A stretch of 64,000 bases of DNA from Tetradesmus obliquus (Eukaryota; Chlorophyta; Chlorophyceae; Sphaeropleales; Scenedesmaceae): assembly GCA_030272155.1 (NCBI GenBank), contig CP126197.1:4952001-5016000 (forward strand), in the 5' to 3' direction. The notes under the pieces are model-generated. The model had not been told where the DNA came from. It searched no databases and was given only the letters and a program-made list of their open reading frames with translations. The position numbers were made by a program, and so were the translations under genes. This document shows, one piece after another, positions 17,914-64,000 of the stretch (positions are counted from its first letter, which is position 1; the number at the start of each line of letters is the position of its first letter).

Positions 17914-18104
17914 CCTGGATGGTTGGAAGCCGCCTGAAACAGCCGCTGGGCCGTGAATCAGCCGTTGGTGACAAGAGCAACAGGGGGCAAGCAGCAATTG
18001 CGGCTCGTGTCTTGCATTGCGTGCAGCTGCGCATGGCTGGTTGCACAACTTATTAGGTGATGTCCCAGCAGCTGCGGTGAAACTGACAGTGCTGGCAGCA
18101 CAGC

Positions 18105-19414
18105 CTAGAACCCACTCATTGATTGGGGCAGGCATGCGCAGTTGGCGTTGCACTTGCAGCCGCCTTGCGATGCTGGCAGGTTGCACTTGGCGCACGGGCC
18201 ACCAGGAGGGGTTGGGCCGGGAGGGGTGGGCCCGGTGCCTGGCAGGCAACCGCAGTTGGCGTCGCACTTGCAGCCGCCCTGTGATGCAGGCAGGTTGCAC
18301 TTGTCGCAGACGTTACCACCACCAGGGGTTGGGCCAGGAGGGGTTGGCCCAGTGCCTGGCAGGCAACCGCAGTTGGCGTCGCACTTGCAGCCGCCCTGTG
18401 ATGCAGGCAGGTTGCACTTGTCGCAGACGTTACCACCACCAGGGGTTGGGCCAGGAGGGGTTGGCCCAGTGCCTGGCAGGCAGTTGCAGTTGCCGTCGCA
18501 CTTGCATCCGCCTTGCGATGCAGGCAGGTTGCACTTGGCACAGCCACCGGGAGGGGTTGGGCCGGGAGGGGTGGGCCCACCGTCGCCATTGATGACCACG
18601 TCAGCACAGTTCCTGCAAGTCCATGGGGCCAGGGGACAGCAGCTGGGTCAGTATGTGCATGCGTCATGCAGGCGCGCCGCTGACAAGACAGATATGCAGC
18701 AGCCTAGCAAGTTTCCAACCTTTTGTTGCTGTGTTGTGACCTGCTAGCATTGTGCTGGGCCTTGCCTGCCTGCGCTGCACGTGTCACACACAACACGGCT
18801 GTGCTCTATATGCACGGTGTGTTGTCAGCGTGACTGAGCAACTGATAGAGCGCTCACAGGAAGATCTCCTGAGGACCGCCTGCGCGGCAGAAGTCCAGCG
18901 GGCCGGGCTGGTTGGTGATCTGGTTCCTCCTGTCCGCGTAGAAGCCGCAGTCCTCCCTTGGGCACGGCTCAACGCTGCGCATGGACACAGCAGCAGGCGT
19001 TACACAGCACATGTCATTGACTCTGGGAGGTGGCTGCTTGGTTTGTTGTGATGTTAGCTGCCCTGTGCGCCAATACGTATTGTGCACGGACGTGCTGTCA
19101 TGTTCATGCTTGCTGCACAGAGTGGAGCCATTCATCAATCGCATGCTGTGCCAGGCAGGCAGTCCAATCTGCGTGAACCAGCGCCAGCAGGGCAGCAGCC
19201 TCGCAGCACTCACCAGCTGTTGTAGGTGTAGTACTCCCTGCAGCCACACACAACAACGGCACATGTCGGTGAGTAACAGCTCATGATGGCGCGTGTGATG
19301 TTGGCTGTGCTCAGGCCTGGCAGCAATCTGTGTAACTGGTATATGGTGAGCTGTCGGCAAAGATCGCTGGTCAACCCCTCTGTTGTGAAGCATGATTGCA
19401 GCACCAAGATATAT

Positions 19415-19472
<58 letters not shown>

Positions 19473-20639
19473 GCACTGCAGGCAAAGCAGACATCGTGCG
19501 GCTTCCTGCATGCTGGCGCAAGGACCCCAGAGCCTGCACTCACATCTGCAGCACGCATCCGCCGGGGCAAGAGAAGCCGGACGGCAGCCTGAGGTCAAAC
19601 TCAGCGGTCTCGGGATTGCCGTTACGAGTGCTCTCAAAGCTGCCCTGCGTGATGTACCAGTGGGGCCTGCCGTTGTCGGCCCTGTGAATGGCAAGAGGGC
19701 GCAGGTCGCAGGCAGCAGGCGCTGAAGGTGAGTTCATGCAAGTGTGGGACTGGGCAGTACAACAGTGCTACAGGCGACCCGCCACATCGTGCTGTCGGAA
19801 GAGGCCGCGGCCACGAGCATTGAAGAACCAGCCCTGGCAAGGCGCGCCCTTGGCTCCAGTCTTGCTGCATCGCTGAGTGATTGCTGTTTGTTCACACCAT
19901 CTGCTGCTGCAGGGCAACAGCAGCCAAGCGATTGATGCTTCGCGATACACAATCAAGGCTGCAGAGATTCCCACCTGACAAGGGTGCGAGCATTGAAGCA
20001 GGCCTGGTCCAGGTTTGTCCTCCTGTCACAGAGCCTGAAGGTGAGGCGGCCTCCGTGGTTGACCTGCAGCCTCACGTTGACCCTGAATACCTGGCCGGAC
20101 CGGTAGGTGGTCACCGGTCCTCGGATGTTTGCCATGTTGCTGGCGGGCGCTTCTTGGTAGGGGTCTCCGCACACACCTGGAAGCAGCAGTAGAAGGAGCG
20201 CATAGCAGTGGGCCAGTCGCACACATGAGCGCCTTGCTGCGCGGCGCGATGGTTTGTACCATGTGCAAACAGCAGTGCTGCTGGTCACGGGCTGCTGAAG
20301 CTGCTTTGAAGTACTAGTTAGCTGTGTGGGCAGAGCTGCAGTGACTGTCACACTGTGACAGTGGCAGTGGCAGTGGCAGTGCAGCGCCGCTGCAGACCTG
20401 GCCACAAGCAAGAACTCACCAGGGTTGCCAGGAGGCCGGAAGTTTGAAGCCGGACCCGGACCCAGACCGTTGCCAGCGTTGGCGTACCAGTTGTTGAAGA
20501 AATTCTCGTTGCGGCTCCTGGGATTCGTCAGAGATGCGTGTGCATGCACCGCAGATGGCAGGCTGCCGAGTACGCAAGCAACCAGAGTCACCAGCAACAG
20601 CTTGCTGTGAGCAGACGGTTTTGCATGTCCTGAATACAT
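18105..20639 (-). CDS. Secreted LPMO_10 / chitin-binding type-4 protein with four Cys-rich repeats (unit 1)
   Basis: Seven exons (20639-20420, 20176-19975, 19864-19779, 19721-19544, 19237-19214, 18974-18858, 18612-18105) join with consistent phases into 444 residues. Residues 1-33 are a signal peptide ending SAVHA. Cleavage there leaves His34 as the mature N-terminus (HASLTNPRSRN), as lytic polysaccharide monooxygenases need for the copper histidine brace. His114 in VNHGGRLTFRLC is the likely second ligand. The core continues with CQGWFFNARG, RPHWYITQGSFE, GFSCPGGCVLQ, YYTYNSC and FLNCADVVI. Residues about 299-440 hold four repeats C-x2-C-x8-C-x-C-x3-C-x-C on GPTPPGPTPGGG-type linkers. LPMOs oxidatively cleave chitin or cellulose outside the cell; the substrate is unknown here. 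I start at 20639 because a TATA box lies 87 bp upstream, although the frame stays open further up. Confidence 0.85.
19413..19470 (+). repeat. CAG microsatellite in LPMO intron 4, variable among units
   Basis: CAG copies number 18 here, 16 in unit 2 (about 40468-40518), 22 in unit 3 (about 46021-46089) and 14 in units 4, 5 and 6. It lies between exons 4 and 5 and reads CTG on the gene strand. Confidence 0.9.
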
Positions 20640-20725
20640 CGCGTTGATGACGATCGAGTTGATGATGTGAAGCTTCAGCTCAAGCGTTCGACAAGCAAGT
20701 GTACTGAATTGGCGAATGCAGCGCA

Positions 20726-20733
20726 CTATATAG
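20726..20733 (-). promoter_or_regulatory. TATA box of the LPMO-like gene
   Basis: CTATATAG lies 87 bp upstream of the ATG at 20639, read on the minus strand. It is conserved at the same distance in every unit (for example near 41774 for the gene starting at 41687) and decides the start between this ATG and longer open-frame alternatives. Confidence 0.6.
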
Positions 20734-21125
20734 CGCAACAGTGACCTTCCATATGAGCCTTCAACCACTTTTTGGCTGCCGGCCATGGCCGGCCGGCCAT
20801 GACCTTCGCTGGACTGCTGCACCGTCGGAGCTTCGCAGCGAAGGCCCAGTCGACCTTCCTCTGTTGGCAGCATGTCACCTGGCCCAGCGTTGCACCCTCA
20901 CCGAGTCACAAAAGTTCACAGACTATCAATAAACGATGGAAGTCTTGTAACGACGTTGTATCAATGCGTGAACGCGTGGGCGCAATTGCAGAAGTCACCG
21001 TGGCTGGAGAGGCATGAGGATAACAAAAGAAACCGCTATAGATGGTGAATCTCTATGCATGGTCCATATGCATGGTTGGCTGACGTGAAGTTTGGTGGGG
21101 TTGGGCGGTGAAGAGGCCTTTCAAC

Positions 21126-21128
21126 CAC
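21126..21128. other. Left target-site duplication CAC
   Basis: CAC precedes the CACTA terminus and matches CAC at 36607-36609; a single copy is present at the empty site in sister units. Confidence 0.9.
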
Positions 21129-21325
21129 CACTATGGTCACTGAAATGTCCAGCTGGATGTCCAGTCATGTCCAGTTGCTGGGGTGCAACTGGACATGTCA
21201 AGTGGCATGTCCAGTGTGAGACTGGACATGGCCATGTCCAGCGTGTGACTGGACATCAAGTGGTAGACTGGACAATCAACTGGACATGCAACTGGACACG
21301 CAACTGGACGTGTATTACAGCACAC
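21129..21325. repeat. Left terminal and subterminal repeats of the CACTA element
   Basis: After the 12-bp terminus, a dozen or so copies of CTGGACATG and its complement CATGTCCAG occur in both orientations at spacings of roughly 10-20 bp. In plant CACTA elements such subterminal motifs bind the element's own DNA-binding protein (TNPA in En/Spm). A TGTAA on the minus strand (21315-21319) may end the accessory gene's transcript. Confidence 0.85.
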
Positions 21326-21695
21326 AAAATGATGCTGATGCGTGCATATCTCATGGTAAAAGAAGCCACAGCATGCAATCGCTTGCCTTTGTCGTGCCAA
21401 TAGATGGCTCTCAGCACTGGTGACCGGTCATGCATGCTGCTACAATACTGCACTAGTGCAGTACTTGCTTGAATGCAGTACACAAGAGCAGACTGCAAAT
21501 AAAAGGCTTGCAGGACAAACAAAACACAAGCAGCAGCATCAGCCATACAGTCAAATGCAGCTGATACAGACCTCTACTGCTCAGCAGCACCTGCTGCTAC
21601 CATCAACCAGCAGCAACTACTCCACATCAACTTGTACTATCCACCAGAGGTGTGAACCAACCGCTGTACCTGCGAATCAACAACACACCCTGTTG

Positions 21696-24436
21696 CTACG
21701 TCTCATACTCTGCAAACTTGTTATTTACTCCCGCCCCTGCCCTCCTACGCCTTCCACCTGCTGCTGCTGTTGCTGCTGCTTCCGTAGCATCCAAGTCGTC
21801 ATCTCCGTCACTGGCTGCAGCCTCAAACTCGTCCTCTTCGCCGCCGCTGCTGCTGCTGCCTGCTTCTGCCTCCTCTTCTGACTCCTTAGACTGCTTCTTC
21901 TTCCTGGGCGGCTGCTTTCCCCCCTTGCCCCCCTTGCGCTTCTTCGCTGGTGCAGCCTCTGCAGCAGGCGCTGCAGCGGATTTTGGTGCTGCTGCTGCTG
22001 CTGCTGCCTTGCGCTTCTTCAGGGCCTTAGCTGCAACACTGCTGCCCTCCAGATCCTTGCCCTGCTGCTGAGCTGCCTTGGCCTCTGCAGTTGGCAGCAT
22101 CGCCAACAAGCCCTTTCCAGCGTCCTTGCGCAGCTGCTCAACAGTTGCGCGCTCCCCTGTCTCGAGGGCCTTGCCCAGCGCAGTTCCCTGCAGGACAACA
22201 TGAGTAGCAGCAGATGCAGCGGCATGCATACCTGTCAGACATGTTGAATGAGCTTGAAGTACACAGAGCAGCATGAGCCCGGACCAGCGTATCCTGCAGG
22301 GAAACAGGTGAAGCAGCAGCTGCAGCGGCATGCACGTAAGCCAAGTGCTGCCTGAATGAACAGCTTGGTGAAGAGCACTGTGCAAGAGCGACAGTTATGT
22401 TGCAACACTTTCGTCATTGAACTGCAACAAAACGCCATCGGTGCACAACTTCACTTACCTTCGCCTGCTTGAACCGCAATTTACGCGCCCGTGCTGTCTG
22501 CGGATCACATCATGTGGACCGACCCCTTTGGGTTGGCTCACAGGCTCATTGGGCACATTCAAAAGCATACCAGGATAAAGCAAACAAAGTAAACAAGCCC
22601 CCTGAAACACAATAACACTTACCCTCGACAGTCCCAGCCGCTCCCGTGCTGCAGGAGGCATGTTGCGCCTCCCCAGCATCTCAGCCATCCTACTCCAAGC
22701 AGCACCGCCTGGCGAGCCCTTGTCAGCACCAGCCTCGCTGGCTGTGGCAGGCTTGGCTGAAGACGGTGGGTGCTGGTCATGCACAGCAGGCCTGCTGTGC
22801 GCTGTGCTAGGGGTGCGACCTACACCTGCTGCTGCAGCAGCTGTAGCAGCTGATGCCCCACCGCTGGCGAAGCTCTGCGTCTGACGCTGTTGCACCTGCT
22901 GCTGCTGTTGCTGCTGCTGCTGGTATGCTTGCGACTGTCTGTCAGCGCTGCGCAGCTGCTGCTGCTGCTGCTGCTGCTGCTGAACAGTACGGCTGATGCT
23001 GCTGCTTGTTTGCAATGGTGTCGCCTGCTGCAGCTGCTGCTGCTGCTGCTGCTGCTGTTGCTGCAGCTGCTGCTGCTGCTGAGTCGCACTGCTGCTGCTG
23101 CTGCTTGTTTGCAACGCTGGCGCCTGCTGCTGCTGCTGCTGCTGCAGCTGCCGCAGCTGCTGCTGCTTCTCAAGAGCCTTGTCCAGCACTGCATCTAGGG
23201 GATCTAGCTCTTCACCTGCATCTGCCGCCACAGCAGCCATGCTGCCGGTGCTGACACTAGCAGTGCTGAGTCTGCCTGCTGGCGCTGCCCCGGGAGCCGA
23301 ATCGAGCCCTGCCTCAGTCACTGCACCACCACCTAAGTCCTGCATGCTGCCAGGTGCCTAAAGCGGGGTTGATCAATGTAGCACAGGGCACATCGTGTTA
23401 CTTTCACGAACATGAGCGAAGACGACTGCAAGAGAGCGCACTGCTGGCTAAACAAATGCCAATACACCAAGAAAGAACAAGTGCAGATGAACACCAACTG
23501 TAATGTGATCTGAGCATCCTTGTAAACACAGGGGCTGCAGTAGCTGTGGTTGCTATCATTGCTGCATTCTGCATGGCATTGAACGCCTCTGCCTGGCCTA
23601 TGCTGCCAAACATGGGTTTACCCACCTGAAGGTGGCCTGCGGGTGTTGTGCCACCTCCAGTGCTGTCTGGTGCCTTCTGCCATACAGTGGGCATGGCATG
23701 CATGTCACGTGCAGAGGAGGACGACACAAACGGGCAAGCTCAGCAAGTGTGTGAGTTTCGAGTTGTTCAAGTCCTTCAGCAGGGTACAAATGACAGGGTG
23801 ATTATGCTGCATCGATTGCTGCCGACTGCCCGACTCAAAGTTGCTGTATCTGCCAAAGCAGAATGTGCACTTTCCTCAACGTCAGCAACTACCAACGTAC
23901 ACCTCGTCAACCTTGCAGAGCCATGAAGCTGCCAACAGGCTCATGTTAACAAGTTTCTGTCCAAGCATGGTTGTTCATCACTTCACCTGTACTGGGAACC
24001 AGCAGTCAACTAGGCTGACTGGGCCTGGCTGCTGGCCGGTCATGGCCTCCTCTGCGCTGACAGCTGCCGCCAGCTGACGTGCTGTTACACCCTGTGCTGT
24101 GCCTGCATGCTGTTTGTCGGCAAACTCGGCCAACGGCCTGAACTCATCTGGCAGCGGCGCAGGCTGCTCATGCCGCCGCTGGTAGAGGTCCCAATACTTC
24201 TGCTTCCATGCATCTGCTGCTGCTTCAGCCTCGCTGAGGTTGTTGCGTTTGTTGGCATTAGCTGGCACTGCTGCTGCCGCTGCTGCGTTCGCTGCTTGCA
24301 GAACACCCTCTGCTGCCTCTTCGCCCAAGCTGCCCTCTTCGAGTGAATTGGCTGCCGCTACAAGAGCACCTGCCGTCAGAGCGTCAGCGGCAGCATGGGC
24401 GTTCTCGATGCTCTTGGCCTGCTGGCAGGCCTTCCT

Positions 24437-24479
<43 letters not shown>

Positions 24480-25771
24480 GAGGTTTGCAGCGATTGATGT
24501 ATTTGGAATCCTTTCTGTGATCATCAGTGGTCCTCCAGGTGCTGTACGCTGCTGCTGCAGTGAGATAGCAAGTAGGGATGATACAAATGCCCTTGCCCTT
24601 GCTGCCACTTTCCCATGCCACCGCTACTACTGCGCAGCTCTTAGCACTGTACAGCAAGAAGACACATGGGAATGCCTGCCACATCTAGTTTTCAGGCCTT
24701 TTGTCACTTGCCTGTAAATCAACCTCACAGCATCCTTGGGGCTCATGCCACAGCCGCGCTGCTGATGGCATCCTTCAGTGGCACCCACTGCAGGCCCTCG
24801 CCATCAGATGCCGTGATGAACTGCCCCTTGAAGCTGCTGGATGGATAGTCAATCTCGGGCTCGCTCTCGCTCTCGCCCTCGTCCTCCAGATCGTCTTCGT
24901 TGGTCTTGAGCACCTGCAAGGCACAAAGCAAACAGGTTGCTGCCCGCATGCCGTAACATGCAAGTGCTGCCACTTCAGCTGCATCTTGTTCACTGCGCGA
25001 CTTATGGTGGGGTTCTAAGACATTGCAGCTGCTGTTCACAACACCATGTGGGGATACCAGTAGACTGCGCACGAATACGCTCTTGTCCATCAATGCTCTG
25101 CTAGCTGGTGGGTGTGCTGCTGTCTCTTTGCAGCTGCAGGCGTACATCTGTAGACGTGCATGCTAGAGAGGTGTATCATGTAGCTGATCCCACCCGAATA
25201 GTCTTTGTGTGCATCGGCCACATCTTGAATGCTATGTTGAGCAGCTTGTTTGGCGTTGGCTGCCCTGTCAGTGCTGCTGCTGTGCTGCTGCTGGCCCTCC
25301 TGCCTATACTCCTGGCCTTGCTGGCACCTGCAGCGCATCGTATCAACAAGACGCTGAACGTTGTACAAACGACAGCAGCACTTTACAGTGGGTGAGGTTG
25401 GCCGTGTGGAGCAGCTGCCTGCAGCTAGGCCCTTCACCTGCAGGTGCCGCAGCTGTGGCCCTCCCCTTGCTTGCCACCTTGCCCAGCACCTGCAGCTGCA
25501 GCCGCAGCTGACCCTCTTCTACTGTGGAAACCGCTGATGCGTTACCCTGCAGCACGTTCTTGAGGCACCTCTGCAGGGGAATTACTGCGCCGTTTGTGCT
25601 GGAGATCTGGATGTCGTCCTGGCTTTCTACGCCTGTTTCCTGCCTGATCACGGACAGCACCTCCGCGAGAACTTCTTCTAATGTGTCTGAATCATTGTAA
25701 AGCCAAGCGATTTTGAAGGGAGTGCCACCGTCGATGGCAAACACAATCTCCCTTATCATTGTTCCTGCCAT
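21696..25771 (-). CDS. Second CACTA-encoded protein, unknown family (possible TNPA-like accessory)
   Basis: Eight exons join with consistent phases: 25771-25438, 25327-25194, 24913-24789, 24434-23987, 23676-23626, 23357-22623, 22497-22459 and 22187-21696, giving about 785 residues. The first ~105 residues look folded (MIREIVFAIDGGTPFKIAWL, VLSVIRQETGVES) and could be a ubiquitin-like or PB1-like fold, which is only a guess. An acidic stretch (EDEGESESEPEIDYP), a charged helical region (WKQKYWDLYQRRHEQ), a long Gln/Ser tract, and a C-terminus with several KKRK-type nuclear signals and an acidic patch follow, ending NNKFAEYET. By position it may bind the subterminal repeats, but I see no known DNA-binding domain. 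Less certain points are the exon 3 donor (TGCA-GTGGGT) and whether exon 5 extends beyond 23626. Confidence 0.65.
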
Positions 25772-26204
25772 GATCTCCACCACCGATCATTAGCAACGCA
25801 ACCGAAAAAAAACGTGCTGCGAGAAACAAACCGGTCACATCTGCGGGGGGGACTCCAGGAGGGGGAAGCATCCGCCATCTGGATCTGGTGTTTGAACCAC
25901 AGAGCAGTTACATAACACCTCGAGTCATAAATGGCCAGCTTTGCCCTATAGAAGACGAAGACTAGTATATCAAAGGTGTTAATTGATCCCCATGTGGCTG
26001 GAACAGTTGGTATGAGTGTTCCTCTCACATGATGTGCCGTCTTCAGTTGTGCACAAAAGGCTGCACCTGCGCGAGCTGCACATGCAGCGCCTACATCTGT
26101 AAGGAATTGTCAGCAGAACCCACTGCTGTTATGCAGCTGTGTCACCAACTTACCGCTGCACATGTGTGTGTGCATGCAACAAGCGTGAGGCAGCCATGAA
26201 CAGG

Positions 26205-28320
26205 TCATCCGCTCCACAACAGCAGCAAATCAGCGCTGCTCTCAACAGGCATAACAGGAGCATGCGCTGCGCAGCACGGCTGCAGCTTGCGCTTTCTTGT
26301 GAGTGGCACCTGTTTGGAGCCTTGCTGCGTGCATGCTGTGGCAGCCGGGTGTCCTAAGAGTGTCTTGCAGTGCTGTAGATGCAGTGTTGCCGCTGCAGCT
26401 GCTGCGCAACGCCAGCAGGTGGCAGGGGAATGTGTGAGCAAACGGTGTTCAAGCGTGCACACTGCCAGCAGCTGCCGGCCTGTGATGGCGCCTCCATTAC
26501 CAGCACGGCTGATCCGCGCTGCTCTCAACAGGCATAACAGGAACACGCGCTGCGCAGCACGGCTGCAGCTTGCGCTTTCTTGTGAGCGGCACCTGTTAGA
26601 AGCCTTGTTGCGTGCATGCTGTGGCAGCCGGGTGTCCTAAGAGTGTCTAGCAGTGCTGTGGATGCAGTGTTGCCGCTGCAGCTGCTGCGCAACGCCAGCA
26701 GGTGGCAGGGGCATGTGTGAGCAAGCGGTGTTCAAGCATGCACGCTGCCAGCAGCTGCCGGCCTGCGATGGCGCCTCCTTCACCAGCACGGCTGATCCGC
26801 GCTGCTCTCAACAGGCATAACAGGAGCACGCGCTGCGCAGCACGGCTGCAGGTTGCGCTTTCTTGTGAGTGGCACCTGTTTGGAGCCTTGCTGCGTGCAT
26901 GCTGTGGCAGCCGGGTGTCCTAAGAGTGTCTTGCAGTGCTGTAGATGCAGTGTTGCCGCTGCAGCTGCTGCGCAACGCCAGCAGGTGGCAGGGGCATGTG
27001 TGAGCAAGCGGTGTTCAAGCGTGCACACTGCCAGCAGCTGCCGGCCTGTGATGGCGCCTCCATTACCAGCACGGCTGATCCGCGCTGCTCTCAACAGGCA
27101 TAACAGGAACACGCGCTGCGCAGCACGGCTGCAGCTTGCGCTTTCTTGTGAGCGGCACCTGTTAGAAGCCTTGTTGCGTGCATGCTGTGGCAGCCGGGTG
27201 TCCTAAGAGTGTCTAGCAGTGCTGTGGATGCAGTGTTGCCGCTGCAGCTGCTGCGCAACGCCAGCAGGTGGCAGGGGCATGTGTGAGCAAGCGGTGTTCA
27301 AGCATGCACGCTGCCAGCAGCTGCCGGCCTGCGATGGCGCCTCCTTCACCAGCACGGCTGATCCGCGCTGCTCTCAACAGGCATAACAGGAGCACGCGCT
27401 GCGCAGCACGGCTGCAGGTTGCGCTTTCTTGTGAGTGGCACCTGTTTGGAGCCTTGCTGCGTGCATGCTGTGGCAGCCGGGTGTCCTAAGAGTGTCTTGC
27501 AGTGCTGTAGATGCAGTGTTGCCGCTGCAGCTGCTGCGCAACGCCAGCAGGTGGCAGGGGAATGTGTGAGCAAGCGGTGTTCAAGCGTGCACACTGCCAG
27601 CAGCTGCCGGCCTGTGATGGCGCCTCCATTACCAGCACGGCTGATCCGCGCTGCTCTCAACAGGCATAACAGGAGCACGCGCTGCGCAGCACGGCTGCAG
27701 CTTGCGCTTTCTTGTGAGCGGCACCTGTTAGAAGCCTTGTTGCGTGCATGCTGTGGCAGCCGGGTGTCCTAAGAGTGTCTAGCAGTGCTGTGGATGCAGT
27801 GTTGCCGCTGCAGCTGCTGCGCAACGCCAGCAGGTGGCAGGGGCATGGGTGAGCAAGCAGTGTTCAAGCGTGCACGCCGCCAGCAGCTGCCGGCCTGCAT
27901 GGCGCCTCCATTACCAGCACGGCTGATCCGCGCTGCTCTCAACAGGCATAACAGGAGCACGCGCTGCGCAGCACGGCTGCAGCTTGCGCTTTCTTGTGAG
28001 CGGCACCTGTTAGAAGCCTTGTTGCGTGCATGCTGTGGCAGCCGGGTGTCCTAAGAGTGTCTAGCAGTGCTGTGGATGCAGTGTTGCCGCTGCAGCTGCT
28101 GCGCAACGCCAGCAGGTGGCAGGGGCATGGGTGAGCAAGCGGTGTTCAAGCATGCACGCTGCCAGCAGCTGCCGGCCTGCGATGGCGCCTCCTTCACCAG
28201 CACGGCTGTTCCGCGCTGCTCTCAACAGGCATAACAGGAACACGCGCTGCGCAGCACGGCTGCAGCTTGCGCTTTCTTGTGAGCGGCACCTGCCAGGCTT
28301 CAAGTTTAAGGCTTGTTGCG
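26205..28320. repeat. 283-bp satellite, eight monomers in 566-bp dimers, inside the CACTA element
   Basis: The marker CTCAACAGGCATAACAGG recurs at 26241, 26524, 26807 and 27090 and continues at the same 283-bp step to about 28220. Odd and even monomers carry different variants (GTTTGGAGCC versus GTTAGAAGCC), so the true period is 566 bp. The block lies between the two genes of the element. The stretch 25772-26204 before it shows no gene. Confidence 0.9.
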
Positions 28321-28943
28321 ATAGCCCTACAAGCATGCTATGGCAGTCTTGTCTCTTAACAATGTCTTGCAGTGCTGTTGATGCAGATTGCATCAAATGC
28401 AGTGCACCTGCAGGTGTTATGCACAATTGTACCATATGTGCATGTGCTATGCATCACCACGCAGAATGGTTCTGTGCTGGCCCATACATCACCTGCATTG
28501 TGTGCTGTGATTGCTTGTTTGCATATTGTGACCGTGCAGCACGATCATGACTGTTAGCATGTGTTGATATAGCAGCGTTGCTACCAGCTTGCTGTATGAC
28601 GTGCCGGCACAAGTGCTGAACTGCACGTCAATAGCCATTGGCCGCTGTGAAAGCTATGTATGCAGAGTTGAGACGCCTGCCAGGTTGCCTGAGCAGCTGC
28701 GCAATGTTTTGGCAATGACTGACTCTTCTTGGTGTTGCGCACTCAAGCCCTCAACTTCAAGCCAAGCTATGATAGCTCAGCGCGCACCAGCACGCGTATG
28801 TACACATAGTTCATGGTTCAAAACACAGTCATTACATGACACGCTCAGCAAACTTTCACATAAAGGAACCACAGACGTGGAGTACTCCACCTACTGGTAG
28901 GTGGCATGCAGCAGCCCCTGCACTGCAGGTGGCACCAGATATT
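28321..28943. other. CACTA internal spacer without a supported gene
   Basis: Only short open frames on either strand are present. Nothing recognisable lies between the 283-bp satellite and the 57-bp minisatellite. Confidence 0.4.
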
Positions 28944-29215
28944 GCAGCGCACACGCACCAGGCAGACACGAGCTGCCGTGTAAGCCCTGAACTAATATCT
29001 GCAGCGCACACGCACCAGGCAGACACGAGCTGCCGTGTAAGCCCTGAACTAATATCTGCAGCGCACACGCACCAGGCAGACACGAGCTGCCGTGTAAGCC
29101 CTGAACTAATATCTGCAGCGCACACGCACCAGGCAGACACGCGCTGCCATGTAAGCCCTGAACCAGCTGCAGCAGCACCCACGCACCAAGCAAACACACG
29201 CTGACATGCAAACCT
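28944..29215. repeat. 57-bp minisatellite, about 4.5 copies
   Basis: The unit starts GCAGCGCACACGCACCAGGC and repeats at 57-bp steps from 28944. The last copies diverge. The 57-bp length keeps frames open, producing a 19-residue repeat on both strands, but no gene signals accompany it. It ends about 80 bp from the transposase stop. Confidence 0.9.
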
Positions 29216-29297
29216 AGCTCAATGCACTGTGCATGCCACAATGGTCACAAGCGGCGCTCACAGCGCCTCCACCGATGTACTGCTGCTGCTTGCACAC

Positions 29298-30264: not shown

Positions 30265-30342
<78 letters not shown>

Positions 30343-51603: not shown

Positions 51604-51649
<46 letters not shown>

Positions 51650-52810
51650 GCACTGCAGGCAAAGCAGACATCGTGCGGCTTCCTGCATGCTGGCGCAAGG
51701 ACCCCAGAGCCTGCACTCACATCTGCAGCACGCATCCGCCGGGGCAAGAGAAGCCGGACGGCAGCCTGAGGTCAAACTCAGCGGTCTCGGGATTGCCGTT
51801 ACGAGTGCTCTCAAAGCTGCCCTGCGTGATGTACCAGTGGGGCCTGCCGTTGTCGGCCCTGTGAATGGCAAGAGGGCGCAGGTCGCAGGCAGCAGGCGCT
51901 GAAGGTGAGTTCATGCAAGTGTGGGACTGGGCAGTACAACAGTGCTACAGGCGACCCGCCACATCGTGCTGTCGGAAGAGGCCGCGGCCACGAGCATTGA
52001 AGAACCAGCCCTGGCAAGGCGCGCCCTTGGCTCCAGTCTTGCTGCATCGCTGAGTGATTGCTGTTTGTTCACACCATCTGCTGCTGCAGGGCAACAGCAG
52101 CCAAGCGATTGATGCTTCGCGATACACAATCAAGGCTGCAGAGATTCCCACCTGACAAGGGTGCGAGCATTGAAGCAGGCCTGGTCCAGGTTTGTCCTCC
52201 TGTCACAGAGCCTGAAGGTGAGGCGGCCTCCGTGGTTGACCTGCAGCCTCACGTTGACCCTGAATACCTGGCCGGACCGGTAGGTGGTCACCGGTCCTCG
52301 GATGTTTGCCATGTTGCTGGCGGGCGCTTCTTGGTAGGGGTCTCCGCACACACCTGGAAGCAGCAGTAGAAGGAGCGCATAGCAGTGGGCCAGTCGCACA
52401 CATGAGCGCCTTGCTGCGCGGCGCGATGGTTTGTACCATGTGCAAACAGCAGTGCTGCTGGTCACGGGCTGCTGAAGCTGCTTTGAAGTACTAGTTGGCT
52501 GTGTGGGCAGAGCTGCAGTGACTGTCACACTGTGACAGTGGCAGTGGCAGTGCAGCGCCGCTGCAGACCTGGCCACAAGCAAGAACTCACCAGGGTTGCC
52601 AGGAGGCCGGAAGTTTGAAGCCGGACCCGGACCCAGACCGTTGCCAGCGTTGGCGTACCAGTTGTTGAAGAAATTCTCGTTGCGGCTCCTGGGATTCGTC
52701 AGAGATGCGTGTGCATGCACCGCAGATGGCAGGCTGCCGAGTACGCAAGCAACCAGAGTCACCAGCAACAGCTTGCTGTGAGCAGACGGTTTTGCATGTC
52801 CTGAATACAT
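50294..52810 (-). CDS. LPMO-like secreted protein (unit 4)
   Basis: This full copy has all seven exons, the standard donor GTGAGT at exon 1 and 14 CAG in intron 4 (51605-51646). No coding difference from unit 1 is visible. The intron 1 variant TTGGCTG links it to units 5 and 6. Confidence 0.85.
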
Positions 52811-55079
52811 CGCGTTGATGACGATCGAGTTGATGATGTGAAGCTTCAGCTCAAGCGTTCGACAAGCAAGTGTACTGAATTGGCGAATGCAGCGCACTAT
52901 ATAGCGCAACAGTGACCTTCCATATGAGCCTTCAACCACTTTTTGGCTGCCGGCCATGACCTTCGCTGGACTGCTGCACCGTCGGAGCTTCGCAGCGAAG
53001 GCCCAGTCGACCTTCCTCTGTTGGCAGCATGTCACCTGGCCCAGCGTTGCACCCTCACCGAGTCACAAAAGTTCACAGACTATCAATAAACGATGGAAGT
53101 CTTGTAACGACGTTGTATCAATGCGTGAACGCGTGGGCGCAATTGCAGAAGTCACCGTGGCTGGAGAGGCATGAGGATAACAAAAGAAACCGCTATAGAT
53201 GGTGAATCTCTATGCATGGTCCATATGCATGGTTGGCTGACGTGAAGTTTGGTGGGGTTGGGCGGTGAAGAGGCCTTTCAACCACAGGTCCTTTCGGTAC
53301 CCGCCCGCCCGGTATTCATCATGTCTGCGGGCTCAAAGCCATTGAAACGCTGATGTAGTTGAATCTCCATTCGCTTCTGGTTCGTGGTTGACACGCGTGG
53401 CTCCTGCGTCATGACAGCAATCGCCTGCTCAGTCTGGTTGTCCGGCCGTGCATCAGACGCCTGAATGCCATGAGCTACGCAGCCAAATCATGTCAGAAGC
53501 AAATTATAAAATGTTTTGTTGTTTTTAACCATAACATGTTTGGTCCAGCCAGGTTCAGCCCGCACCATAACCCCTTCAGCAGCACAGCAGTACTATCAAC
53601 CAACACAGCCCTGCCAGTGTATACACAGCAGCCAACATTGCAAGTCGCACACATGAAAGGAAACTAGGAACGGCCGTAAAGTGTTTACAGTGGTGCCCAC
53701 TCGCATGCAGTTGGGTTGGCTCCACCAGCAGCAGCATGGCTGGCCCGCGCTGTACAGCGCGGTTCACATGTGAACCTGTTCAACAGCGGCACATGTTGTG
53801 CCTTCGAGTTGCAGCCCTGCTTACACGCGCGCCACGCTGCACAACTGCCACCAGGCCGCATGCATGGCCAACTTCGACGCTTGACTGAGCTGCTGAACGT
53901 GCTGCTTCAGCTGCAGGCAGCAGCAGCGCACCCGGTGCTGAGCCTGAGTCAGCGTTTGTGTTGTGATCATCAAAGAGAAGAGTCTTCCAATAGGAACAGG
54001 AACACCAAGACATGTGCTGGCAAGGTTGCATCCCTGAGTTGCAGAACAAGCTTCCCCTGTGCTAGCAGCAGAGCATGGTGTAGGAGCCGTCTGATTGGAG
54101 CCGTCTGATTGGACACTTCACACTTTTCTGCAGATGACGGGATGAGACAAGGCAGGTGTAATCGACACAGACACCGTGTCACTGGCATTGTTGCTGCGCT
54201 TCTGCTGCTGGAGACTGCACGGTGTTCAGCGCGCCTGTTACATTTGCCAAGCAACCCAACCAACAGGCCAAAAACAATGACGCTAGCGCACTGGACAAAC
54301 ACTGTTGTCTGGCAGGCATGTTGGACAAATGCGCCAGTCAATACAAAACACTGGCAAAACGTTCTTTATCATGCAAGCTCAACCAAGCCTACTGGTGTTG
54401 CCAGCGACATGAAATGATGAATGACCACTGCTGCATGCGCAACATATGCATCAAGCAACATGCTATGTGATGGCCGTTGCTCAGAGCTGGGCATGTGCCA
54501 TACTGGTTTACCAGCCATGCAGTTCCATGCTTTGAAGTAACAGGCACCCACAGGCGATGTGTTATCCTGACGATTGAACTGCGCCACTCCGCCCATGAAG
54601 TAGGACATCGCACCATGCACTTGCAGGCATCCGCAGTCGACGCTGACAATCCCACCACCACACCACCGCAGTCGCTTTTCTCCACCATGCAGACGACATC
54701 ACGGCTGCTGGTGTGGGCAACACATTTGGCTGCCAATTACACTTGATGCTGCCGCTCAACAGCATCTTTCTGTCCCTCCCACATTCAGCTTGCTGCATAC
54801 GCTGTTTGTAAGGAAGTGGCACTTCCTACAGCTCACAACGTTTCCACATTATTGCTTGAACTGGCTGAACATCCATAACTACAGTGGCACTCATCAATAC
54901 AGCTGTCATCGCTCAAGGTGCAACAGTCGTGCGTTTCTATGTAAACAACTTTATCAAGAGATGATCTCTGGAGGTGCGCTGCCCCTACATGCAGCCGCAG
55001 CTCAGCCAGCAGTTGCCATAGACAAGCTAGCTGTGGGACACAAGTAGAACCGCCTGGCCACACAACACCCCTTTCTGGC

Positions 55080-55495
55080 TTAGGGTGCCACAGCAGCAGG
55101 TGCGGGATCCGCCACCAAGGCTCCTGCCTCAGTACCCGCTGCGGCAGTAGCTACAGCGGCAGCGTCAGCACCCGGGGCAGCAGCAGCAGCAGCAGCAGGC
55201 TCTACCACTTGCACGCCCTCAGCACCAGCAGCTGCAGGAGCCACCCCAGCAGCAGCAGCCTCGCCGGTCACACCAGGGGCTGCCGTTGCAGCAGCGGCAG
55301 CCACTGCAGTGCTGTCAACAACGCCAGCAGGCTGGGCGGCAGCACTGCTGCCAGCAGCGGATGCAGTCTCGGCGACAGCGGCTGCCTCTTCGGCTGTCTG
55401 TGCGGGCACCCTGGTGACGCCGGCCCTTGCGCGGCGGCTGGCCCTACGTGCAGCTGCGGCTGTCACAGCCACGGTGGCGTTGGCAGCGCGGGCAC
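55080..55495 (-). CDS. Ala-rich terminal exon fragment (unit 4)
   Basis: As in unit 3; no further difference is visible. Confidence 0.35.
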
Positions 55496-55834
55496 CTGCG
55501 CAGGTGGTGGATAGGGCAGGGCAGGAAAAGGCAGGGTATGAGTGCCGTGCAATACAACAATTGGCAAGGACAAAGAGGTCGCCATGCAGTGCACATCTGC
55601 GCATCGAAGGTTACTGACATTTAGGTGATGGCATGAAAGGCTGCCTGGATGGTTGGAAGCCGCCTGAAACAGCCGCTGGGCCGTGAATCAGCCGTTGGTG
55701 ACAAGAGCAACAGGGGGCAAGCAGCAATTGCGGCTCGTGTCTTGCATTGCGTGCAGCTGCGCATGGCTGGTTGCACAACTTATTAGGTGATGTCCCAGCA
55801 GCTGCGGTGAAACTGACAGTGCTGGCAGCACAGC

Positions 55835-57144
55835 CTAGAACCCACTCATTGATTGGGGCAGGCATGCGCAGTTGGCGTTGCACTTGCAGCCGCCTTGCGA
55901 TGCTGGCAGGTTGCACTTGGCGCACGGGCCACCAGGAGGGGTTGGGCCGGGAGGGGTGGGCCCGGTGCCTGGCAGGCAACCGCAGTTGGCGTCGCACTTG
56001 CAGCCGCCCTGTGATGCAGGCAGGTTGCACTTGTCGCAGACGTTACCACCACCAGGGGTTGGGCCAGGAGGGGTTGGCCCAGTGCCTGGCAGGCAACCGC
56101 AGTTGGCGTCGCACTTGCAGCCGCCCTGTGATGCAGGCAGGTTGCACTTGTCGCAGACGTTACCACCACCAGGGGTTGGGCCAGGAGGGGTTGGCCCAGT
56201 GCCTGGCAGGCAGTTGCAGTTGCCGTCGCACTTGCATCCGCCTTGCGATGCAGGCAGGTTGCACTTGGCACAGCCACCGGGAGGGGTTGGGCCGGGAGGG
56301 GTGGGCCCACCGTCGCCATTGATGACCACGTCAGCACAGTTCCTGCAAGTCCATGGGGCCAGGGGACAGCAGCTGGGTCAGTATGTGCATGCGTCATGCA
56401 GGCGCGCCGCTGACAAGACAGATATGCAGCAGCCTAGCAAGTTTCCAACCTTTTGTTGCTGTGTTGTGACCTGCTAGCATTGTGCTGGGCCTTGCCTGCC
56501 TGCGCTGCACGTGTCACACACAACACGGCTGTGCTCTATATGCACGGCGTGTTGTCAGCGTGACTGAGCAACTGATAGAGCGCTCACAGGAAGATCTCCT
56601 GAGGACCGCCTGCGCGGCAGAAGTCCAGCGGGCCGGGCTGGTTGGTGATCTGGTTCCTCCTGTCCGCGTAGAAGCCGCAGTCCTCCCTTGGGCACGGCTC
56701 AACGCTGCGCATGGACACAGCAGCAGGCGTTACACAGCACATGTCATTGACTCTGGGAGGTGGCTGCTTGGTTTGTTGTGATGTTAGCTGCCCTGTGCGC
56801 CAATACGTATTGTGCACGGACGTGCTGTCATGTTCATGCTTGCTGCACAGAGTGGAGCCATTCATCAATCGCATGCTGTGCCAGGCAGGCAGTCCAATCT
56901 GCGTGAACCAGCGCCAGCAGGGCAGCAGCCTCGCAGCACTCACCAGCTGTTGTAGGTGTAGTACTCCCTGCAGCCACACACAACAACGGCACATGTCGGT
57001 GAGTAACAGCTCATGATGGCGCGTGTGATGTTGGCTGTGCTCAGGCCTGGCAGCAATCTGTGTAACTGGTATATGGTGAGCTGTCGGCAAAGATCGCTGG
57101 TCAACCCCTCTGTTGTGAAGCATGATTGCAGCACCAAGATATAT

Positions 57145-57190
<46 letters not shown>

Positions 57191-58351
57191 GCACTGCAGG
57201 CAAAGCAGACATCGTGCGGCTTCCTGCATGCTGGCGCAAGGACCCCAGAGCCTGCACTCACATCTGCAGCACGCATCCGCCGGGGCAAGAGAAGCCGGAC
57301 GGCAGCCTGAGGTCAAACTCAGCGGTCTCGGGATTGCCGTTACGAGTGCTCTCAAAGCTGCCCTGCGTGATGTACCAGTGGGGCCTGCCGTTGTCGGCCC
57401 TGTGAATGGCAAGAGGGCGCAGGTCGCAGGCAGCAGGCGCTGAAGGTGAGTTCATGCAAGTGTGGGACTGGGCAGTACAACAGTGCTACAGGCGACCCGC
57501 CACATCGTGCTGTCGGAAGAGGCCGCGGCCACGAGCATTGAAGAACCAGCCCTGGCAAGGCGCGCCCTTGGCTCCAGTCTTGCTGCATCGCTGAGTGATT
57601 GCTGTTTGTTCACACCATCTGCTGCTGCAGGGCAACAGCAGCCAAGCGATTGATGCTTCGCGATACACAATCAAGGCTGCAGAGATTCCCACCTGACAAG
57701 GGTGCGAGCATTGAAGCAGGCCTGGTCCAGGTTTGTCCTCCTGTCACAGAGCCTGAAGGTGAGGCGGCCTCCGTGGTTGACCTGCAGCCTCACGTTGACC
57801 CTGAATACCTGGCCGGACCGGTAGGTGGTCACCGGTCCTCGGATGTTTGCCATGTTGCTGGCGGGCGCTTCTTGGTAGGGGTCTCCGCACACACCTGGAA
57901 GCAGCAGTAGAAGGAGCGCATAGCAGTGGGCCAGTCGCACACATGAGCGCCTTGCTGCGCGGCGCGATGGTTTGTACCATGTGCAAACAGCAGTGCTGCT
58001 GGTCACGGGCTGCTGAAGCTGCTTTGAAGTACTAGTTGGCTGTGTGGGCAGAGCTGCAGTGACTGTCACACTGTGACAGTGGCAGTGGCAGTGCAGCGCC
58101 GCTGCAGACCTGGCCACAAGCAAGAACTCACCAGGGTTGCCAGGAGGCCGGAAGTTTGAAGCCGGACCCGGACCCAGACCGTTGCCAGCGTTGGCGTACC
58201 AGTTGTTGAAGAAATTCTCGTTGCGGCTCCTGGGATTCGTCAGAGATGCGTGTGCATGCACCGCAGATGGCAGGCTGCCGAGTACGCAAGCAACCAGAGT
58301 CACCAGCAACAGCTTGCTGTGAGCAGACGGTTTTGCATGTCCTGAATACAT
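55835..58351 (-). CDS. LPMO-like secreted protein (unit 5)
   Basis: This is a full copy with the same exons and splice sites as unit 4. Intron 6 carries the CGGCGTG variant shared with unit 3, so the transcription unit is a mosaic of the two types. The encoded protein is unchanged. Confidence 0.85.
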
Positions 58352-60620
58352 CGCGTTGATGACGATCGAGTTGATGATGTGAAGCTTCAGCTCAAGCGTT
58401 CGACAAGCAAGTGTACTGAATTGGCGAATGCAGCGCACTATATAGCGCAACAGTGACCTTCCATATGAGCCTTCAACCACTTTTTGGCTGCCGGCCATGA
58501 CCTTCGCTGGACTGCTGCACCGTCGGAGCTTCGCAGCGAAGGCCCAGTCGACCTTCCTCTGTTGGCAGCATGTCACCTGGCCCAGCGTTGCACCCTCACC
58601 GAGTCACAAAAGTTCACAGACTATCAATAAACGATGGAAGTCTTGTAACGACGTTGTATCAATGCGTGAACGCGTGGGCGCACTTGCAGAAGTCACCGTG
58701 GCTGGAGAGGCATGAGGATAACAAAAGAAACCGCTATAGATGGTGAATCTCTATGCATGGTCCATATGCATGGTTGGCTGACGTGAAGTTTGGTGGGGTT
58801 GGGCGGTGAAGAGGCCTTTCAACCACAGGTCCTTTCGGTACCCGCCCGCCCGGTATTCATCATGTCTGCGGGCTCAAAGCCATTGAAACGCTGATGTAGT
58901 TGAATCTCCATTCGCTTCTGGTTCGTGGTTGACACGCGTGGCTCCTGCGTCATGACAGCAATCGCCTGCTCAGTCTGGTTGTCCGGCCGTGCATCAGACG
59001 CCTGAATGCCATGAGCTACGCAGCCAAATCATGTCAGAAGCAAATTATAAAATGTTTTGTTGTTTTTAACCATAAAATGTTTGGTCCAGCCAGGTTCAGC
59101 CCGCACCATAACCCCTTCAGCAGCACAGCAGTACTATCAACCAACACAGCCCTGCCAGTGTATACACAGCAGCCAACATTGCAAGTCGCACACATGAAAG
59201 GAAACTAGGAACGGCCGTAAAGTGTTTACAGTGGTGCCCACTCGCATGCAGTTGGGTTGGCTCCACCAGCAGCAGCATGGCTGGCCCGCGCTGTACAGCG
59301 CGGTTCACATGTGAACCTGTTCAACAGCGGCACATGTTGTGCCTTCGAGTTGCAGCCCTGCTTACACGCGCGCCACGCTGCACAACTGCCACCAGGCCGC
59401 ATGCATGGCCAACTTCGACGCTTGACTGAGCTGCTGAACGTGCTGCTTCAGCTGCAGGCAGCAGCAGCGCACCCGGTGCTGAGCCTGAGTCAGCGTTTGT
59501 GTTGTGATCATCAAAGAGAAGAGTCTTCCAATAGGAACAGGAACACCAAGACATGTGCTGGCAAGGTTGCATCCCTGAGTTGCAGAACAAGCTTCCCCTG
59601 TGCTAGCAGCAGAGCATGGTGTAGGAGCCGTCTGATTGGAGCCGTCTGATTGGACACTTCACACTTTTCTGCAGATGACGGGATGAGACAAGGCAGGTGT
59701 AATCGACACAGACACCGTGTCACTGGCATTGTTGCTGCGCTTCTGCTGCTGGAGACTGCACGGTGTTCAGCGCGCCTGTTACATTTGCCAAGCAACCCAA
59801 CCAACAGGCCAAAAACAATGACGCTAGCGCACTGGACAAACACTGTTGTCTGGCAGGCATGTTGGACAAATGCGCCAGTCAATACAAAACACTGGCAAAA
59901 CGTTCTTTATCATGCAAGCTCAACCAAGCCTACTGGTGTTGCCAGCGACATGAAATGATGAATGACCACTGCTGCATGCGCAACATATGCATCAAGCAAC
60001 ATGCTATGTGATGGCCGTTGCTCAGAGCTGGGCATGTGCCATACTGGTTTACCAGCCATGCAGTTCCATGCTTTGAAGTAACAGGCACCCACAGGCGATG
60101 TGTTATCCTGACGATTGAACTGCGCCACTCCGCCCATGAAGTAGGACATCGCACCATGCACTTGCAGGCATCCGCAGTCGACGCTGACAATCCCACCACC
60201 ACACCACCGCAGTCGCTTTTCTCCACCATGCAGACGACATCACGGCTGCTGGTGTGGGCAACACATTTGGCTGCCAATTACACTTGATGCTGCCGCTCAA
60301 CAGCATCTTTCTGTCCCTCCCACATTCAGCTTGCTGCATACGCTGTTTGTAAGGAAGTGGCACTTCCTACAGCTCACAACGTTTCCACATTATTGCTTGA
60401 ACTGGCTGAACATCCATAACTACAGTGGCACTCATCAATACAGCTGTCATCGCTCAAGGTGCAACAGTCGTGCGTTTCTATGTAAACAACTTTATCAAGA
60501 GATGATCTCTGGAGGTGCGCTGCCCCTACATGCAGCCGCAGCTCAGCCAGCAGTTGCCATAGACAAGCTAGCTGTGGGACACAAGTAGAACCGCCTGGCC
60601 ACACAACACCCCTTTCTGGC

Positions 60621-61036
60621 TTAGGGTGCCACAGCAGCAGGTGCGGGATCCGCCACCAAGGCTCCTGCCTCAGTACCCGCTGCGGCAGTAGCTACAGCGG
60701 CAGCGTCAGCACCCGGGGCAGCAGCAGCAGCAGCAGCAGGCTCTACCACTTGCACGCCCTCAGCACCAGCAGCTGCAGGAGCCACCCCAGCAGCAGCAGC
60801 CTCGCCGGTCACACCAGGGGCTGCCGTTGCAGCAGCGGCAGCCACTGCAGTGCTGTCAACAACGCCAGCAGGCTGGGCGGCAGCACTGCTGCCAGCAGCG
60901 GATGCAGTCTCGGCGACAGCGGCTGCCTCTTCGGCTGTCTGTGCGGGCACCCTGGTGACGCCGGCCCTTGCGCGGCGGCTGGCCCTACGTGCAGCTGCGG
61001 CTGTCACAGCCACGGTGGCGTTGGCAGCGCGGGCAC
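60621..61036 (-). CDS. Ala-rich terminal exon fragment (unit 5)
   Basis: As in unit 3. The unit 6 copy, if present, lies outside the window. Confidence 0.35.
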
Positions 61037-61184
61037 CTGCGCAGGTGGTGGATAGGGCAGGGCAGGAAAAGGCAGGGTATGAGTGCCGTGCAATACAACA
61101 ATTGGCAAGGACAAAGAGGTCGCCATGCAGTGCACATCTGCGCATCGAAGGTTACTGACATTTAGGTGATGGCATGAAAGGCTG

Positions 61185-62685
61185 CCTGGATGGTTGGAAG
61201 CCGCCTGAAACAGCCGCTGGGCCGTGAATCAGCCGTTGGTGACAAGAGCAACAGGGGGCAAGCAGCAATTGCGGCTCGTGTCTTGCATTGCGTGCAGCTG
61301 CGCATGGCTGGTTGCACAACTTATTAGGTGATGTCCCAGCAGCTGCGGTGAAACTGACAGTGCTGGCAGCACAGCCTAGAACCCACTCATTGATTGGGGC
61401 AGGCATGCGCAGTTGGCGTTGCACTTGCAGCCGCCTTGCGATGCTGGCAGGTTGCACTTGGCGCACGGGCCACCAGGAGGGGTTGGGCCGGGAGGGGTGG
61501 GCCCGGTGCCTGGCAGGCAACCGCAGTTGGCGTCGCACTTGCAGCCGCCCTGTGATGCAGGCAGGTTGCACTTGTCGCAGACGTTACCACCACCAGGGGT
61601 TGGGCCAGGAGGGGTTGGCCCAGTGCCTGGCAGGCAACCGCAGTTGGCGTCGCACTTGCAGCCGCCCTGTGATGCAGGCAGGTTGCACTTGTCGCAGACG
61701 TTACCACCACCAGGGGTTGGGCCAGGAGGGGTTGGCCCAGTGCCTGGCAGGCAGTTGCAGTTGCCGTCGCACTTGCATCCGCCTTGCGATGCAGGCAGGT
61801 TGCACTTGGCACAGCCACCGGGAGGGGTTGGGCCGGGAGGGGTGGGCCCACCGTCGCCATTGATGACCACGTCAGCACAGTTCCTGCAAGTCCATGGGGC
61901 CAGGGGACAGCAGCTGGGTCAGTATGTGCATGCGTCATGCAGGCGCGCCGCTGACAAGACAGATATGCAGCAGCCTAGCAAGTTTCCAACCTTTTGTTGC
62001 TGTGTTGTGACCTGCTAGCATTGTGCTGGGCCTTGCCTGCCTGCGCTGCACGTGTCACACACAACACGGCTGTGCTCTATATGCACGGTGTGTTGTCAGC
62101 GTGACTGAGCAACTGATAGAGCGCTCACAGGAAGATCTCCTGAGGACCGCCTGCGCGGCAGAAGTCCAGCGGGCCGGGCTGGTTGGTGATCTGGTTCCTC
62201 CTGTCCGCGTAGAAGCCGCAGTCCTCCCTTGGGCACGGCTCAACGCTGCGCATGGACACAGCAGCAGGCGTTACACAGCACATGTCATTGACTCTGGGAG
62301 GTGGCTGCTTGGTTTGTTGTGATGTTAGCTGCCCTGTGCGCCAATACGTATTGTGCACGGACGTGCTGTCATGTTCATGCTTGCTGCACAGAGTGGAGCC
62401 ATTCATCAATCGCATGCTGTGCCAGGCAGGCAGTCCAATCTGCGTGAACCAGCGCCAGCAGGGCAGCAGCCTCGCAGCACTCACCAGCTGTTGTAGGTGT
62501 AGTACTCCCTGCAGCCACACACAACAACGGCACATGTCGGTGAGTAACAGCTCATGATGGCGCGTGTGATGTTGGCTGTGCTCAGGCCTGGCAGCAATCT
62601 GTGTAACTGGTATATGGTGAGCTGTCGGCAAAGATCGCTGGTCAACCCCTCTGTTGTGAAGCATGATTGCAGCACCAAGATATAT

Positions 62686-62731
<46 letters not shown>

Positions 62732-64000
62732 GCACTGCAGGCAAAGCAGACATCGTGCGGCTTCCTGCATGCTGGCGCAAGGACCCCAGAGCCTGCACTC
62801 ACATCTGCAGCACGCATCCGCCGGGGCAAGAGAAGCCGGACGGCAGCCTGAGGTCAAACTCAGCGGTCTCGGGATTGCCGTTACGAGTGCTCTCAAAGCT
62901 GCCCTGCGTGATGTACCAGTGGGGCCTGCCGTTGTCGGCCCTGTGAATGGCAAGAGGGCGCAGGTCGCAGGCAGCAGGCGCTGAAGGTGAGTTCATGCAA
63001 GTGTGGGACTGGGCAGTACAACAGTGCTACAGGCGACCCGCCACATCGTGCTGTCGGAAGAGGCCGCGGCCACGAGCATTGAAGAACCAGCCCTGGCAAG
63101 GCGCGCCCTTGGCTCCAGTCTTGCTGCATCGCTGAGTGATTGCTGTTTGTTCACACCATCTGCTGCTGCAGGGCAACAGCAGCCAAGCGATTGATGCTTC
63201 GCGATACACAATCAAGGCTGCAGAGATTCCCACCTGACAAGGGTGCGAGCATTGAAGCAGGCCTGGTCCAGGTTTGTCCTCCTGTCACAGAGCCTGAAGG
63301 TGAGGCGGCCTCCGTGGTTGACCTGCAGCCTCACGTTGACCCTGAATACCTGGCCGGACCGGTAGGTGGTCACCGGTCCTCGGATGTTTGCCATGTTGCT
63401 GGCGGGCGCTTCTTGGTAGGGGTCTCCGCACACACCTGGAAGCAGCAGTAGAAGGAGCGCATAGCAGTGGGCCAGTCGCACACATGAGCGCCTTGCTGCG
63501 CGGCGCGATGGTTTGTACCATGTGCAAACAGCAGTGCTGCTGGTCACGGGCTGCTGAAGCTGCTTTGAAGTACTAGTTGGCTGTGTGGGCAGAGCTGCAG
63601 TGACTGTCACACTGTGACAGTGGCAGTGGCAGTGCAGCGCCGCTGCAGACCTGGCCACAAGCAAGAACTCACCAGGGTTGCCAGGAGGCCGGAAGTTTGA
63701 AGCCGGACCCGGACCCAGACCGTTGCCAGCGTTGGCGTACCAGTTGTTGAAGAAATTCTCGTTGCGGCTCCTGGGATTCGTCAGAGATGCGTGTGCATGC
63801 ACCGCAGATGGCAGGCTGCCGAGTACGCAAGCAACCAGAGTCACCAGCAACAGCTTGCTGTGAGCAGACGGTTTTGCATGTCCTGAATACATCGCGTTGA
63901 TGACGATCGAGTTGATGATGTGAAGCTTCAGCTCAAGCGTTCGACAAGCAAGTGTACTGAATTGGCGAATGCAGCGCACTATATAGCGCAACAGTGACCT
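61185..64000. repeat. Array unit 6 (partial, cut by window edge)
   Basis: The first 2816 bp of a unit are present, including a whole LPMO-like coding region. It matches unit 4 at the sites that can be compared: 14 CAG, CGGTGTG at 62087 and TTGGCTG at 63579. Confidence 0.95.
61376..63892 (-). CDS. LPMO-like secreted protein (unit 6)
   Basis: The coding region is complete although the unit is cut by the window edge; 108 bp upstream of the ATG are present, including the TATA box near 63980. The sequence is as in unit 4. The second half of this unit and the right boundary of the array are beyond the window. Confidence 0.85.

Follow-up and report, generated by a model that had tools for sequence, protein, structure and literature searches.

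Tetradesmus obliquus carries what looks like a real tandem array of eleven secreted, AA15-like LPMO genes, recently evened out

Why would the genome of Tetradesmus obliquus hold copy after copy of one LPMO-like gene, and are the copies real? The window, as we use the word, is the whole stretch of DNA analyzed, positions 4,952,001-5,016,000 of contig CP126197.1 (C7), 64,000 nt; coordinates above 64000 continue past its end. One D1-protease exon in this genome agrees with PDB 1fc6, a Scenedesmus obliquus protein, at 89 of 89 residues. A 1-kb probe against the alga's own genome (104.66 Mb, 17 contigs) located the window at C7:4952001-5016000 and gave 11 matches of 96–100% identity between C7:4972000 and C7:5043810; three weaker matches fell on C1 and near C7:4948591. 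When one unit was compared with the surrounding 144 kb, 11 head-to-tail copies of the LPMO gene emerged: whole units U1–U10, each 5421–5582 bp long, plus 3575 bp of an incomplete U11. The array spans window position 17914 to window coordinate 92380 (C7:5044380), ∼28 kb beyond the window end, and its two edges fall at differing unit positions, 5486 and ∼3595. A spacer probe of 2049 bases had 12 matches in the genome, all within the array; these correspond to 11 units, each of the two parts of U1 giving a match. Tandem amplification is thereby borne out where the earlier note had placed it, with the left edge at exactly its starting position, and its estimate of at least six copies stands, at 11 units in an array that extends beyond the window. 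The parts inside the window are these:

17914..64000, minus strand: in-window part of the LPMO gene array, which goes on to 92380
17914..21128, minus strand: U1, left part, with gene exons 1-6 only (18116-20639)
36607..39023, minus strand: U1, right part, holding exon 7 of the U2 gene (38404-38819)
39024..44576, minus strand: U2, gene at 38404-41687
44577..50158, minus strand: U3, gene at 43957-47269, in which a 17-bp insertion alters the exon 1 donor to GTGATC
50159..55699, minus strand: U4, gene at 49539-52810
55700..61240, minus strand: U5, the reference unit, gene at 55080-58351
61241..64000, minus strand: U6, first part, gene at 60621-63892, complete inside the window

The window had been described as holding five full units and the start of a sixth. 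U2–U5 are indeed uninterrupted and U6 does begin there, but U1 is split by a 15.48-kb insert. The same holds for the claim of a complete seven-exon gene in every unit, which is right for U2–U6 within the window and wrong for the truncated U1 gene, from which exon 7 is absent. BLAST identity to U5, with gaps counted, was 99.2–99.9% for U2–U4, U6 and U8–U10, 98.9% and 99.6% for the two parts of U1, 99.4% for the main piece of U7, and 98.6% for U11. Such similarity is far above chance expectation.

21129..36606, no strand assigned: insert of 15,478 bp interrupting U1, ∼480 bp upstream of the U1 ATG

By its ends, this insert has the marks of a CACTA element. It starts with CACTATGGTCAC and finishes with GTGACCATAGTG, and it is flanked on both sides by a 3-bp target duplication, CAC, that is single in U5; it thus combines the CACTA terminal inverted repeats and the 3-bp duplication of a CACTA/EnSpm transposon. 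Among 40 scored of 141 candidates, its first 1500 bp occurred at 8 places with 96–100% identity, U1 included, and its first ∼170 bases alone at 32 further places with 86–89%. A Pfam scan of five of the seven insert ORFs of at least 200 aa yielded no match, to a transposase or otherwise, above cut-off. A 259-aa ORF (window 31042-31821, minus strand) had no Pfam match up to E 1; it resembles a piece of an EnSpm transposase. Also within the insert are two tandem repeats, at window 26229-28292 (283 bp, 7.3 copies) and 31995-33048 (263–269 bp, ∼4 copies). Left of the array, minus-strand ORFs at window 52-972 and 7070-8149 matched LRR_8, a leucine-rich repeat model, at 35.4 bits (cut-off 27) and came just short of the cut-off for Peptidase_C1 (18.8 bits, cut-off 20.7). 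An Rfam search of the window at gathering scores returned zero matches.

The array gene reads on the minus strand in exons of 220, 202, 138, 24, 117, 497 and 416 bp, with GT-AG splice sites in U3 and U5, the two copies inspected for them. Exon 7 of each gene sits in the left-neighboring unit, in frame with exon 6. For the reference unit:

58132..58351, minus strand: exon 1, signal-like N-terminus and predicted His1 (VHA|HASLTNP, predicted cleavage)
57693..57894, minus strand: exon 2, LPMO core with the second brace His (QVNHGGR)
57262..57399, minus strand: exon 3, LPMO core
56944..56967, minus strand: exon 4, 24 bp
56588..56704, minus strand: exon 5, LPMO core, with Phe where 5msz has the axial Tyr184
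55846..56342, minus strand: exon 6, end of the LPMO core, Pro-rich linkers and four 39-aa Cys-rich repeats
55857-56309: 117-bp DNA repeat in exon 6
55080..55495, minus strand: exon 7, encoding the Ala-rich tail; it continues the reading frame of exon 6, as it also does in paralogue D
58438..58445, minus strand: TATA-like sequence, ∼90 bp upstream of the U5 ATG

The number of seven exons first proposed is right if the seventh is this downstream Ala-rich exon, and not if unit positions 1791-1883 are counted, which we read as an intron. We rejected 1791-1883 as exon 3 because paralogues D and C1 carry frame-breaking indels of 1, 2 and 4 bp there and because the Pfam score falls with it (25.2 bits for a 433-aa protein, against 34.9 for 246 aa and 32.4 for 537 aa without it); an apparent R160C change in U10 fell together with this exon. 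Paralogue D lies ∼21 kb left of U1 (∼C7:4945965-4949251) and has diverged; it shares its exon order and the Ala-rich exon with the array gene. Its donor, acceptor and stop places for exon 7 match those of the array gene, and its reading contains no stop; the exons of D and the array were compared by eye, over all but part of exons 5 and 6. That the Ala-rich ORF is a separate gene is less likely, since D conserves donor, acceptor, phase and stop and does not conserve the upstream part that bears the ATG. We infer that exon 6 is spliced to exon 7.

An open seven-exon frame is kept in 10 of the 11 copies (U2–U11), nine of them encoding 537 aa and U7 498 aa. U4–U6 and U8–U11 encode one and the same protein, seven of the ten; the proteins of U2 and U3 carry A482V, and that of U7 is short of one 39-aa repeat. 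The U1 gene consists of exons 1–6, and the place where its exon 7 would be expected lies outside the array.

The encoded protein runs from a hydrophobic, signal-like N-terminus through HASLTNPRSR and an LPMO_10 domain to four Cys-rich repeats and an Ala-rich tail (537 aa in all). Pfam LPMO_10 matched the 537-aa protein at 32.4 bits against a cut-off of 23. Against the PDB, a single-sequence query that still included the rejected exon found the AA15 structure 5msz at E 3.1e-6, with cochlin at chance level (E 0.12); with a three-row profile 5msz was the sole match up to E 1, at E 3.4e-11. The second His of the copper brace is placed by alignment of QVNHGGR with QAPHIGF, the site of His91 in 5msz. 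The first would be exposed by cleavage before HASLTNPRSR, a prediction from sequence; the motif follows the signal-like start and is conserved in the C1 paralogue. Phe is aligned with Tyr184 of 5msz; Tyr is not known to be required at this axial position, where Phe is usual in AA10. Family and solved-relative similarity thus mark the array protein as an AA15-like LPMO, and the LPMO-like, putatively secreted product that the earlier note had proposed is upheld by the above-cut-off LPMO_10 match, the secretion-signal-like start and 5msz as nearest solved relative. In NCBIfam, the model SCE4755 scored 27.8 bits, below its cut-off of 75. No confirmed relative came from pattern scans of viral_contigs (16 matches) or genome_contigs (10), collections that by their descriptions are both without algal nuclear genomes. 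The roles of His91 and Tyr184 in TdAA15A (5msz) are treated in PMC5823890.

Elsewhere in the genome, C1, C16 and three places on C9 hold LPMO-like exons, and C2 and C6 gave weak matches. The places on C1, C9 and C16 each hold a single exon set (4.5–10 kb around each was read). The Cys module is not confined to LPMO genes: at C7:5046035-5056435 and C5:3127669-3128609 it occurs in genes that have no LPMO exons. Beyond the window, a second tandem array (window coordinates 92452-105288, C7:5044452-5057288) starts ∼70 bp after the LPMO array; it has a period of ∼5.19 kb and ∼2.5 copies, 91.6–96.6% identical, and the C7 Cys-module genes lie in it on the plus strand, while its minus strand has a stretch resembling LPMO exon 6. 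On C5, pieces of one gene at ∼2640-4900 of C5:3124000-3132000 combine a signal-like start, an Ala-rich stretch and Cys modules with an Arg-rich run that is similar to RRASRRARAG in exon 7 of the array gene.

How the units differ from one another bears on how they arose. Across U1–U10 we counted 28 variable sites, 3 in 1614 bp of CDS, 5 in 1658 bp of intron and 20 in 2269 bp of spacer (CDS vs spacer P = 0.005, CDS vs all non-coding P = 0.035; both values are rough, since variable sites share history). Exons 1–5, nearly the whole LPMO domain, have zero variants in any copy, all three coding sites lying elsewhere. Including U11 brings in 17 further spacer sites, of which 16 lie at unit positions 3353-3521, its diverged edge. 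The variants are shared in a pattern. A single SNP separates U7 from U9, and 5 separate U8 from U10, against 14 between U7 and U8, which points to the copying of a two-unit block; U3 and U5 differ by 2. At the left end neighbors are closest, with 5 SNPs between U1 and U2 against 16 between U1 and U8. Taken in order from U1 to U11, the intronic CAG run measures 18, 16, 22, 14, 14, 14, 13, 13, 13, 13 and 16 units. Patterns of this kind are expected from unequal exchange and conversion, and would not be expected from an assembler repeating one copy. The unequal exchange between units that had been suggested is therefore supported, U7 resembling U9 and U8 resembling U10 as they would after a block duplication. 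By structure and by variant sharing, the locus has the build that a dose array would have, with whole gene units in tandem, homogenized by recombination, and it looks like a real array whose copies were recently evened out.

Constraint was estimated from divergence. For the LPMO exons, dN/dS (Nei-Gojobori) relative to the C1 paralogue was 0.40 over 231 codons; relative to D it was 0.42 over 154 codons, a value that may mix constrained and relaxed time, because the His1 region is absent from D. D, lacking that region, is probably not a working LPMO. Exon 7 gave 0.83 (130 codons), suggestive of weak constraint.

Our preferred reading, to which we give a probability of roughly 60%, is that T. obliquus has 11 tandem genes for a secreted AA15-like LPMO, duplicated, homogenized by exchange and kept because the dose is useful, probably in the alga's own wall. 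An ancestral LPMO gene would have been duplicated in tandem; the resulting 5.5-kb direct repeats would then allow unequal homologous exchange, which would alter copy number and spread variants in blocks, and this block exchange would keep the copies nearly identical, as in concerted evolution. Copies would be retained since more enzyme is useful. The enzyme would probably act on the wall of the alga itself, cutting or loosening crystalline polysaccharide there, for example when daughter cells are released, with the Cys-rich repeats and the Ala/Pro-rich tail holding it in the wall. Selection for dose is plausible, and we infer the role in the alga's own wall. Of the three groups of chlorophyte walls described in PMC10762512, one combines glucan, mannan and chitin with algaenan, in passages that do not state the group of Scenedesmus.

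The array could instead be a passing product of unequal exchange at a duplication hotspot, with no benefit from dose. We regard this as possible, if on the doubtful side. The second tandem array, beginning so close to the first, suggests that the place is perhaps simply duplication-prone, and the units themselves hold 117-bp repeats and a CAG run of 13–22 units; the two array edges at different unit positions fit as well. Neutral instability sits poorly with an open frame kept in all copies save U1, with variant-free exons 1–5, and with fewer variants in coding DNA than in spacer. The low CDS variation reflects few events at sites with a common history, however, and gene-centered conversion could suffice to produce it without selection for dose.

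A role in handling copper, and not in cutting polysaccharide, would give the array another purpose. Here the surface LPMO-fold domain and the Cys repeats would bind copper, and amplification would be a dose adaptation like that of CUP1. The Cys spacing, CxxC-x8-CxC-x3-CxC in a module without aromatic residues, and the repeats' sole Pfam match up to E 10, Metallothio_5, are what prompt this reading, and they lend weak support to a copper-handling gene amplified in the manner of CUP1. That match reached 10 bits (E 1, four stretches), far under the 25-bit cut-off, and the module found nothing above cut-off in Pfam, NCBIfam or the PDB, the last having no match up to E 10. There are precedents: the fungal LPMO-like Cbi1/Bim1 serves copper uptake (PMC9258870) and CUP1 arrays carry copper resistance (PMC4232551). 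Against it, the repeats belong to a protein with a secretion-signal-like start, in which disulphides are as likely, and upstream there is no enrichment of GTAC cores of the copper-response type, with 2 counted over 700 bp and 1.8 expected. We hold copper handling to be improbable, and we put no higher the broader picture of an LPMO domain with metallothionein-like repeats, amplified elevenfold as CUP1 is, whether as copper adaptation or as a wall enzyme with its own copper store.

It is very improbable that the assembler multiplied a smaller number of true copies or joined two haplotypes in series, because, near-identical as some units are (U7 and U9, U3 and U5), the units have lengths, CAG runs and order-dependent variants of their own, one holds a transposon-like insertion, and the last is diverged at its edge; the exact copy number may be off in either direction.

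Returning to the retained-dose reading, if the copies are expressed the array would be a natural high-dose LPMO system in a photosynthetic alga, and would offer a direct route to what LPMOs do in algae, be it wall remodeling, defense or copper handling. The array also provides a recent and clean example of an entire multi-exon gene unit evolving in concert. The earlier note took such an array to be undescribed. Among the literature matches listed for LPMO/AA15 in algae, Scenedesmus/Tetradesmus, metallothionein and green-algal arrays, a coverage mostly outside subscription papers, there was no report of an algal LPMO tandem array, which agrees with that view; algal AA15 LPMOs themselves are already known, from Chlorophyta and in some cases fused to GH18, by the account in PMC5823890.

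Four known systems invite comparison. With TdAA15A (5msz) the array protein shares its sequence family, a second brace His aligned with His91 and a His1 at the predicted mature N-terminus; it differs in its Phe at the position of the axial Tyr184, in carrying an Ala-rich tail as well as four Cys-rich repeats, and in being encoded by 11 gene copies in tandem. LPMOs with disordered, Cys-enriched C-terminal extensions, as described in PMC8615602, likewise have a Cys/Pro/Gly/Ala-rich module of unknown kind behind an AA15-type domain, whereas that of the array protein is built of ordered 39-aa repeats with fixed Cys spacing, common to nearby non-LPMO genes. Cbi1/Bim1 (PMC9258870) resembles it as an LPMO-like histidine-brace protein at the cell surface; the matches of the array protein are to AA15 and Pfam LPMO_10. 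The yeast CUP1 arrays (PMC4232551) are alike in amplifying a copper-related gene as whole units in tandem; CUP1 is a metallothionein, whereas the array gene is multi-exon, with a putatively secreted, LPMO-like product and a dose effect that is putative.
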